A stretch of DNA of 50,713 nucleotides from an uncultured Alphaproteobacteria bacterium. Its GTDB lineage: Bacteria > Pseudomonadota > Alphaproteobacteria > RF32 > CAG-239. A program made the translations under genes and the position numbers. Each line of letters begins with the position of its first letter. Position 1 is the stretch's first letter. Below the pieces are notes generated by a model. That model was not told the DNA's origin. It searched no databases and was given only the letters and a program-made list of their open reading frames with translations. This document shows positions 32,770 through 34,444 of this stretch, in pieces. The stretch covers positions 1-50,713 of the forward strand of contig CALXVY010000009.1 in NCBI GenBank assembly GCA_944392255.1, given 5' to 3'.

Positions 32770-33690
32770 ATGAAACAGGAAATTAGATATAATGTTGATG
32801 CTTCTTTGAAACAAATTATCAAAGAATGGCTCGATTGGCTCACCGATGAGCGTAAATATTCGCCGCACACACTCGATGGATATGCTCGTGATTTGGCTGA
32901 TTTTACCGCCTCTTTTGATAAGCCTCTCTCCCTCAAACAGCTTGAAAAAATGGATGTGCGAGCTTTCCGCAACTATATTTCTGCTAAAGCTGCTCATGGG
33001 CTTGAGAAATCTTCTCTGGCGCGGCATATTTCTACGCTTCGTAATTTTTTCAAATTCCTCAATGCACGTAAAATTATCAAAAATACCGCAATTTCAGTTA
33101 TCTCTTCACCCAAGCGCAACAAGGTTTTGCCTAAAGCGCTTGATGTGAACCAAACTTTTGATGTGTTGGAAGAAAGCAAAAATTTTGCGACCAACGCTTG
33201 GCAAGGACTTCGTGATGCCGCTATTTTTACCCTGCTCTACGGATGCGGTTTGCGTATCTCCGAAGCCCTTAACCTCAACGTTGGTGATATAGACAGCAAT
33301 GATTTCGTACGCATCCGGGGTAAAGGTAATAAAGAAAGAATCGTGCCCGTGCTACCTCAAATCAAAGATGCCATCAATGCTTATTTGAAAGAATGCCCCT
33401 ATCATCTTAAAAGTGGCGAACCGCTTTTCTTGGGCGCCAGGGGTGAGCGCCTCTCGCCACGGATTATACAACGGCAGCTGCAAAAAATTCGCGCGGGGCT
33501 CGGACTACCTGAAAACTTAACTCCTCATGCGCTGCGACATTCTTTTGCAACTCACCTCTTGGCGGAAGGAACCGACCTACGCTCCATTCAAGAGCTCCTT
33601 GGTCATGCTTCCCTCTCGACAACTCAGCGATATACTGATGTTAATATCGAAACTCTCAAAAAAGAATACTCCAAACTGAAGCCTGTTTGA
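32770..33690 (+). CDS. xerC: Tyrosine recombinase XerC
   Basis: A 306-aa Xer recombinase resolving chromosome dimers at dif. It has a SAM-like core-binding N-terminal domain (13-105) and a catalytic domain with Arg162 (GCGLRISEAL), Lys185 (RGKGNKER), His253/Arg256 (HALRHSF), His279 (LLGHASLS) and Tyr288 (TTQRYTDV). Its place next to priA and the atp operon supports XerC rather than XerD or a phage integrase. The stop codon lies inside the first copy of a 72-nt repeat (33685-33756). Confidence 0.93.
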   Translation: MKQEIRYNVDASLKQIIKEWLDWLTDERKYSPHTLDGYARDLADFTASFDKPLSLKQLEKMDVRAFRNYISAKAAHGLEKSSLARHISTLRNFFKFLNARKIIKNTAISVISSPKRNKVLPKALDVNQTFDVLEESKNFATNAWQGLRDAAIFTLLYGCGLRISEALNLNVGDIDSNDFVRIRGKGNKERIVPVLPQIKDAINAYLKECPYHLKSGEPLFLGARGERLSPRIIQRQLQKIRAGLGLPENLTPHALRHSFATHLLAEGTDLRSIQELLGHASLSTTQRYTDVNIETLKKEYSKLKPV

Positions 33691-33756
33691 CCGCATCAGT
33701 TAGACGGCCGCTCTGACTGGGGCTTGAAACCGCGATGCTCTCTTAGTTCTTGGCGG
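33685..33756 (+). repeat. 72-nt direct repeat, copy A
   Basis: Ungapped match to 34020-34091 at about 80% identity. The first 25 and last 28 bases are nearly identical and the middle differs. The copy starts on the last codon and stop codon of xerC. Its end (ACCGC...GCGGT) can form a short stem. See copy B. Confidence 0.75.
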
Positions 33757-33783
33757 TACTTTCGTGCCACGTTCAAAAAATGT

Positions 33784-33812
33784 TTGCTTTTTTGCTTTTA
33801 TCTCATTACAAT
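33784..33812 (+). promoter_or_regulatory. Sigma-70 promoter of the putative ncRNA
   Basis: TTGCTT (33784-33789), 17-bp spacer, TACAAT (33807-33812). No open reading frame follows, so transcription from about 33820 would make a non-coding RNA. Confidence 0.65.
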
Positions 33813-33819
33813 CCTCTTT

Positions 33820-33980
33820 GCAGGTTAGAGATAGCCTGTGGTGTCTGAAAAACATCTCACTAATAAACATCCACTTGAGGTGGAGTGCATGATATAAGCC
33901 TATTTATAGGTCGAATAAATGCGTCTGTGTTAGTGCAGTTTTTCAGCTCCACCGCCGATGTTTTTTAACATTCGGCGGTA
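33820..33980 (+). ncRNA. Putative structured non-coding RNA, about 160 nt, unassigned
   Basis: Downstream of a good promoter lies a long nested stem. GGTG (33840-33843) pairs with CACC (33950-33953), CTGAAAAAC (33845-33853) with GTTTTTCAG (33938-33946) and CACTAA (33858-33863) with TTAGTG (33930-33935). Inside are the hairpins TCCAC/GTGGA (33870-33884) and CCTA/TAGG (33899-33910). A GC-rich hairpin follows and can terminate it. Length and rod shape recall 6S RNA, but I cannot match 6S consensus sequence, and SRP, RNase P or tmRNA signatures are absent. Confidence 0.6.
33952..33978 (+). terminator. Hairpin at the 3' end of the putative ncRNA
   Basis: CCGCCGATGTT pairs with AACATTCGGCGG with one bulged T. 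A modest T-run (GTTTTAAC) follows. Confidence 0.6.
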
Positions 33981-34019
33981 TGTTTTAACAAGCTGGCGGC
34001 AGCTTGACAAACGTAGCAC

Positions 34020-34091
34020 GTTTGACCGCATTAGTTAGACTGCCTATCTTGCGGTGCCTCGTGACCGCGATGCTATCTTCGTTCTTGGCGG
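34020..34091 (+). repeat. 72-nt direct repeat, copy B
   Basis: Second copy of the repeat at 33685. It is preceded by two small perfect hairpins: AAGCTG/CAGCTT (33990-34005) and AAACGT/ACGTTT (34009-34023). It lies 43 nt before the HTH gene. The rest of the 444-nt gap between xerC and that gene holds the ncRNA and no protein gene. Confidence 0.75.
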
Positions 34092-34134
34092 AAAAAACAC
34101 GGCTCGAACAAAAAAACTGAAAAGGAGTTGAAAT

Positions 34135-34377
34135 ATGTTAGATAAAAAACAAGCTAAACAAAATTTGAAACAAACCAGATTGAACCTTGCCGAGCAAATT
34201 ATCGCTCTCCGGCGCGCCAATCATATGCGCGTGGTGGATCTTTCCGCTCAATCTGACGTGCCCTCAATCTATATTGAAAAACTGGAACTTGGTCTTGCCG
34301 AACTCAATATCGGCTATCTCAACCAAATTGCTCGAACTTTTCATCAAAAAATTTCCATCGAATTGGAAAATGTATAA
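34135..34377 (+). CDS. Small helix-turn-helix (XRE/Cro-type) protein
   Basis: An 80-aa protein made almost entirely of one Cro/C1-type HTH domain: LAEQIIALRRANHMRVVDLSAQ, then SDVPSIYIEKLELGLAELNIGYLNQIARTF. A strong AAAGGAG precedes the ATG. It may act as a repressor of itself or of the upstream ncRNA/repeat region; targets are unknown. Confidence 0.8.
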   Translation: MLDKKQAKQNLKQTRLNLAEQIIALRRANHMRVVDLSAQSDVPSIYIEKLELGLAELNIGYLNQIARTFHQKISIELENV

Positions 34378-34390
34378 TAATTATAAAAAA

Positions 34391-34417
34391 AAATACCGGC
34401 ACCTTGCGCCGGTATTT
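34391..34417. terminator. Bidirectional terminator
   Basis: AAATACCGGC and GCCGGTATTT form a perfect 10-bp stem around ACCTTGC with flanking A and T runs. It serves the HTH gene and the convergent rpmG. Confidence 0.92.
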
Positions 34418-34444
34418 TTCTAAACTTAAAAAGTATCAAAGAAA

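Follow-up and report, generated by a model that had tools for sequence, protein, structure and literature searches.

The locus and its folded RNA

The window analysed here, a stretch of 50,713 nt, lies in contig C9 of an alphaproteobacterial assembly of 1.64 Mb in 43 contigs. Between xerC (32770-33690) and an ORF for an 80-aa helix-turn-helix protein lies a structured RNA, termed type I below, flanked by a promoter-like element and a terminator-like hairpin, Table 1. An earlier note on this DNA had recorded that no reading frame follows the promoter. This is true of the RNA proper but the unit runs on into the helix-turn-helix ORF. A strong terminator-like hairpin (ATACCGGCACCTTGCGCCGGTATTTTT, 34385-34421) was observed directly 3' of this gene, so that RNA and gene make up a self-contained unit.

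Table 1. Features of the RNA and its downstream gene. Positions are those of the full 50,713-nt window, forward strand; colons separate paired strands.
Feature	Position	Strand	Evidence
Promoter-like element TTGCTT-17-TACAAT	33784-33812 (33784-33789, 33807-33812)	+	Sequence; positional conservation
Conserved structured RNA (type I), model R1 positions 1-139	33818-33956	+	157.9 bits in own genome; covariation
P1 hairpin	33820-33839 (33820-33827:33832-33839)	+	98.6% of cells paired; 8/8 pairs with double changes
P_A hairpin, GGTG[loop]CATC; loop is 5' strand of P_B	33840-33856 (33840-33843:33853-33856)	+	98.4% paired; third pair UA68/AU21/GC1
P_B, P_A loop CTGAAAAAC with GTTTTTCAG; pseudoknot with P_A	33845-33946 (33845-33853:33938-33946)	+	96.2% paired; 8/8 pairs with double changes
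P_C, copy-specific stem, CACTAA with TTAGTG (P_H loop)	33858-33935 (33858-33863:33930-33935)	+	97.6%/97.7% paired; 6/6 pairs with double changes
P_D hairpin TCCAC:GTGGA, exclusive with P_G	33870-33884 (33870-33874:33880-33884)	+	88.1% paired; 65 double-change cells; score 0/500 shuffles
P_G, GGTGGAG with CTCCACC	33879-33953 (33879-33885:33947-33953)	+	94.4% paired; one pair UA34/GC32/AU13/GU8/CG4
P_E and P_F	33887-33922 (33887-33890:33919-33922; 33899-33902:33907-33910)	+	97.7% and 97.5% paired; double changes in every pair
P_H hairpin CTG:CAG; loop is P_C 3' strand	33925-33938 (33925-33927:33936-33938)	+	Paired in 89/93, 94/96 and 96/97 type I sequences
Terminator-like hairpin ACCGCCGATGTT..AACATTCGGCGGT, then ATGTTTT	33951-33986	+	Sequence
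SD region GGAGTTGAAA (= GGAGUUGAAA)	34124-34133	+	10 bp complementary to UUUCAGCUCC at 33941-33950, one G-U
Small XRE-like helix-turn-helix protein, 80 aa, cotranscribed behind RNA	34135-34377	+	ORF; weak HTH_3 match, clearer in homologues

The minimum free energy of the window RNA was -63.3 kcal/mol as against -42.7 ± 4.2 kcal/mol for dinucleotide shuffles (z = -4.96, 0/200). The opposite strand is likewise stable (z = -5.19), thus energy alone cannot fix the strand of the RNA, which is fixed by the promoter, the order of the terminator and covariation. The earlier note had proposed a structured RNA, to be checked against homologues for compensating base changes. These proved to be massive, with double changes in 32 of 34 pairs, and comparison and computed energy together confirm a real structured RNA rather than a chance fold. 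The individual elements of the proposal were also recovered, namely nested stems of 9 bp (P_B) and 6-8 bp (P_C), two internal hairpins (P_D and P_E/P_F) and a GC-rich end hairpin (33951-33979). A strict sigma-70 scan did not flag the promoter-like element but its position is conserved, TTG[CA]NN-16/18-TANNNT being found just upstream of the RNA in 77/95 homologous loci versus 1.8% of random windows from the same loci.

Over 97 sequences, 97.6% of all cells in P1, P_A, P_B, P_C, P_E and P_F were paired, and their covariation score was 0.737 compared with 0.196 for shuffled and less than 0.09 for slid controls, bearing in mind that shuffle and permutation tests are inflated by kinship among the sequences. 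A MAFFT alignment, which is not fitted to structure, gave double changes in 26/36 pairs, and no shuffle reached the observed values. P_A and P_G were absent from the model that made the alignment, yet both covary. P_A, for example, flips between GGTG:CAYC and GGAG:CTCC in g3, g9, g12 and outgroup sequences. Every helix covaries except P_H, which is nearly invariant in type I sequences and therefore has no covariation support there. The internal loop GANATAAG/CGAATAA enclosed by P_E and P_F is also nearly invariant.

P_D and P_G use the same middle strand and both covary, hence there are two mutually exclusive pairings; at locus L118, TTCCAA, GGTTGGAAG and CTTCCAACC all change together. The 5' strand of P_G mimics an SD and its 3' strand is an anti-SD. 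When only nested pairs were modelled, folds with P_D were on average 5 kcal/mol more stable than those with P_G. P_G therefore relies on contacts within the pseudoknots, which such a model leaves unscored.

Copies, downstream genes and SD complementarity

Seven close copies were found in the same genome by BLAST, with further ones in other genera, and the covariance model R1, built from 41 copies, added an eighth (C2:74054-74187), giving at least eight type I copies in this genome. R1 matched 109/152 genomes of the window's family, covering 14/16 genera, with about 735 matches when the counts for the 109 matched genomes are summed. The maximum per genome is at least 21, this being the number of candidates scored. 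R1 also matched a few genomes outside the family (G224, G317 and G241). Named records with the same RNA are MAGs of uncultured gut and rumen Alphaproteobacteria. The xerC-linked copy lies at the same place in three other species (G001, G005 and G002), from which it follows that this copy is vertically inherited. In a phage collection, neither the RNA-gene unit nor the helix-turn-helix protein was matched, and a single pattern match among viral contigs, within a coding gene of a 210-kb contig, was judged to be due to chance.

In nearly all copies across the family, the RNA is followed by a 70-95 aa XRE-like protein with a helix-turn-helix core and a C-terminal strand (K..IxLxD). These proteins are ∼13-39% identical to the one in the window and match Pfam HTH_3/HTH_31 below the cut-off. 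The exceptions are pilin-like genes (L101 and L118) and, in genome G026, a multi-copy exported protein whose C-terminal domain is weakly of the Lcl_C type. Just downstream of the RNA, 82/95 homologues have a terminator-like hairpin and a T run. In genera other than g1, the ORF starts ∼40-60 nt past the end of the RNA model and the SD comes right after this hairpin, in most of them only 10-20 nt past it; the gene must therefore share the transcript of the RNA. The window's genus has a longer spacer, 18-137 nt after a 180-nt core, with dispersed repeats in some copies.

The A[GA]CUCC strand that the RNA carries at its 3' end is complementary to the gene's own SD, and CTCC can pair either with this SD or with the internal SD mimic. 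The predicted duplex between each anti-SD and its own SD was stronger than in permuted pairings, both for type I (-10.94 versus -9.70 kcal/mol, 70 unique pairs, 0/5000) and for type II, the related RNAs described below (-10.48 versus -8.62 kcal/mol, 43 unique pairs, 0/5000). Since the permutation leaves relatedness in, independent switches of strand and SD are the stronger evidence. The pairs AACTCC/GGAGTT, with AACTCCCC/GGGGAGTT in the fourth copy at L107, and AGCTCC/GGAGCT were found, as were GCTTCC/GGAAGC in L118, GAACATCC/GGATGTTC in most type II loci, GAACACCC/GGGTGTTC in L302, CTAACATCC/GGATGTTA in L281, L283 and L300, ACTCCC/GGGAGT in L320 and ACCTCC/GGAGGT in L322. It is rare for SDs to depart from consensus together with an internal strand, and such joint drift is a directly testable signature of anti-SD control encoded in a leader. 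The complementarity is weak in some copies, for example 5-6 bp in L064/L065.

Several other arrangements were noted. Locus L107 (1012-1894, G123:C7) carries four tandem type I RNAs, each preceded by a promoter-like element; a helix-turn-helix ORF lies behind the last only, and the other three have a relict SD and no gene. In the window's own genome, the helix-turn-helix protein at L043 (G000:C21) is 98.75% identical to that of the window while the RNAs are only ∼84% identical, suggesting that the gene part was recently duplicated or underwent gene conversion. The window RNA lies between two direct repeats of 101 nt that are 73% identical (33680-33780 and 34015-34115). Related pieces, GACCGCAT..GTTAGAC..CCGCGATGC..TTCTTGGCGG, are found at other places in the genome (G000 C19, C4, C15, C38 and C20) without the RNA or the helix-turn-helix gene. 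The flanking repeats are a separate dispersed repeat.

Relation to sRNA-Xcc1 and C4 RNA

No Rfam family matched anywhere in the window at curated thresholds. The sole resemblance noted at the level of E<=10 was to sRNA-Xcc1 (RF02221), over the 3' half of the RNA, with 20.9 bits and an E-value of 0.4. The curated cut-off of RF02221 is 53 bits and the best type I relative, L118, reached 33.8 bits, so that type I RNAs lie outside the family as curated. However, RF02221 finds the loci called type II, and R2, a model of type II, finds type I loci (G011:C10, G014:C26, G011:C25 and G010:C15) with E-values from 1.4e-7 to 4.5e-6, which closes the chain from RF02221 through type II to type I. The closest described family is sRNA-Xcc1. 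These comparisons support a common ancestry of type I RNA and RF02221 with a shared 3'-domain architecture, the window RNA being, on this support, a distant and unrecognised relative.

The 3' domain of RF02221 maps one-to-one onto P_G, P_E, P_H and the 3' strand of P_B; shared are the closing stem P_G, P_E with an AAUACAA/GAAUAA-like internal loop, the P_H hairpin and the UUUUUGAG strand. The 87-position Rfam model differs in having no 5' half, that is, no hairpin whose loop pairs downstream in a pseudoknot. Type I RNAs additionally have P1, P_D, a CUCC anti-SD and XRE-like genes downstream. Nevertheless, RF02221 matches in Alphaproteobacteria do carry the upstream P_A hairpin (P_A/P_B) and a P_C strand, for example AGGGCTTCGAAAACCCT with GTTTTCGAA. 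The RF02221 model appears truncated, in that its matches here have ∼75 nt of conserved, covarying structure upstream. Northern blots show sRNA-Xcc1 as an independent RNA of 88 nt, whose ends have been mapped (PMC2996969), and in Xanthomonas integron cassettes it lies upstream of the small ORF symE (PMC12444791). The comparison indicates that the mapped RNA corresponds to the 3' half of a folded leader that is larger.

The window's own genome (G000) contains six type II copies (C1:108293-108444, C15:6613-6777, C16:24835-24988, C17:12454-12607, C29:3217-3371 and C32:9329-9485). Behind the four examined lie small lipoprotein/exported or other proteins, most of them with the unusual SD GGATGTT(C), which matches the ACATCC strand of the RNA. 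The RF02221-type RNAs of other Alphaproteobacteria stand in front of KilA-N and Rha-like phage regulators. In some of these phage-type loci (L212, L214 and L219) the P_C and P_B 3' strands match both the spacer and the gene's SD region, giving a candidate second complementary site upstream of the SD, at p values that are modest for the single locus; no such second site was apparent in type I.

The phage-type loci recall the C4 antisense RNA of phages P1 and P7 (RF01695), which blocks a ribosome-binding site and is cut out of a larger transcript (PMC5320573, PMC12197685); RNase P, cleaving at a GG where a stem begins, leaves 77 nt (PMC5320573). One C4 loop covers the ribosome-binding site, specificity comes from another loop, and C4 has expanded to 21 copies in Acinetobacter baumannii (PMC5320573). 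The window RNA is likewise a structured RNA encoded in a leader, and over 10 bp it is complementary to the SD of the gene cotranscribed with it. However, its stems and sequence are different and the anti-SD is a stem strand, not a loop. RF01695 gave no match to the window RNA at E<=10 and none in its own genome or in G011, and C4 was rejected as a direct relative. The window RNA is most likely built like P1 C4 RNA, and closest to it in operon logic, while belonging to a different family. Searches of open-access literature gave no earlier description of the present family. It is a real and widespread RNA family of the sRNA-Xcc1/C4-like kind, uncatalogued as such in the sources searched.

Proposed mechanism and alternatives

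We lean towards the reading that the RNA is the 5' leader of the downstream helix-turn-helix gene and exerts two-state translational control, the sequence evidence suggesting that it probably controls whether the next gene is on or off. A single transcript would carry the ∼140-nt pseudoknotted RNA from its promoter, followed by the terminator-like hairpin, the SD and the gene. We infer a direction, a trigger, processing and action in trans for this switch along the following lines. In the ON state the anti-SD CUCCACC would be locked to the internal SD mimic via P_G, leaving the gene's SD free. In the OFF state the upstream hairpin P_D would take the SD mimic, and the anti-SD, extended by the 3' strand of P_B, would cover the gene's SD, either in cis or, after processing or termination, in trans. 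The 5' domain (P_A loop and P_C strand) may hold the 3' domain through two base-paired docking contacts, and in the phage-type relatives these docking parts resemble the two complementarity sites of C4 RNA. The leader reading is favoured by the covariation, the transcript shared with the gene, the matched changes of strand and SD and the frequent promoter- and terminator-like elements, and C4 RNA offers a precedent for its logic. Counting against it are the weak SD complementarity in some copies, the three ORF-less tandem copies in L107, the preference for P_D in the nested-only energies and the ∼150-nt spacer between terminator and gene in the window.

The RNA might instead be a trans-acting small RNA, ending at its own terminator or cut at P_G, whose 3' domain, once set free, represses many mRNAs that have an SD to match, the downstream gene being one target. 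We regard this as possible but rather unlikely. It is the presumed mode of sRNA-Xcc1 and C4 RNAs; the 88-nt sRNA-Xcc1, Northern-detected and end-mapped (PMC2996969), corresponds to the domain closed by P_G, and C4 is processed by RNase P to its 77-nt form (PMC5320573). The anti-SD common to all copies of one type, the promoter-like element of each ORF-less copy in L107 and the frequent terminator-like hairpin also fit. However, in nearly all loci the RNA is strongly linked to a downstream gene with which it shares a transcript, and SD changes track the local copy. Considerably less probable is a ligand-sensing riboswitch, in which the GANATAAG/CGAATAA loop and the pseudoknots bind a metabolite and so set the choice between P_D and P_G. 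The near-invariant unpaired residues and the many paralogous genes, including those for surface lipoproteins and pilin-like proteins behind type II, would suit such a sensor, and translational riboswitches share the leader position, the anti-SD and anti-anti-SD strands and the two exclusive pairings. Against it, the genes behind the RNA have no common metabolic theme, a context that suggests no ligand; the RNA is a member of no Rfam riboswitch family, P_C is copy-specific, and the phage antirepressor relatives suggest an antisense immunity logic instead.

Two further readings are contradicted by the present evidence. That the locus is only a dispersed DNA repeat or transposable element, with inverted repeats mimicking an RNA, is very improbable: the multiple copies and the dispersed repeats nearby would agree with it, but all variable helices show copy-specific compensatory changes, promoter position is conserved, SDs are coupled to the RNA and three other species have the xerC-linked copy at the same place. 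The 6S RNA resemblance seen by the earlier note in the rod-like drawing and the length deserves hardly any credence. Neither 6S nor, RF02221 apart, any other Rfam family matched at the gathering score or at E<=10, and a multi-copy gene leader with at least eight type I copies in one genome does not resemble 6S. Nor is the RNA a single rod with an open central bubble, given the covarying P_A/P_B pseudoknot and the P_C/P_H contact.

Returning to the two-state leader, a wider reading, which we offer tentatively, is that such RNAs form a large unrecognised superfamily, with XRE-like regulators behind type I, surface lipoproteins and other exported proteins behind type II and KilA-N/Rha antirepressors behind the phage type, and with the sRNA-Xcc1 of Rfam as a truncated fragment. 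A phage immunity RNA may have been domesticated into a genome-wide regulon of gut Alphaproteobacteria, in which copies of one type cross-talk via their shared anti-SD. The present results make sRNA-Xcc1, an orphan RNA that was first described in a plant pathogen, the tip of a widespread class whose mechanism can be tested. They also point to a probable layer of RNA-based gene control, with up to at least 21 copies per 1.5-Mb genome, in a family of gut bacteria for which the records examined include no cultured model.

Genome G026, with loci L074, L078, L079, L080, L084 and L086 among others, contains at least eight type I RNAs. Behind those examined lie exported proteins that are paralogues of one another and whose C-terminus (WWSSS...RPV) is C-lectin-like and looks variable, reminiscent of the targets of diversity-generating retroelements. 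At L302 (G105:C12) a type II RNA precedes the same exported lectin-like family, thus both RNA types can serve the same gene family.
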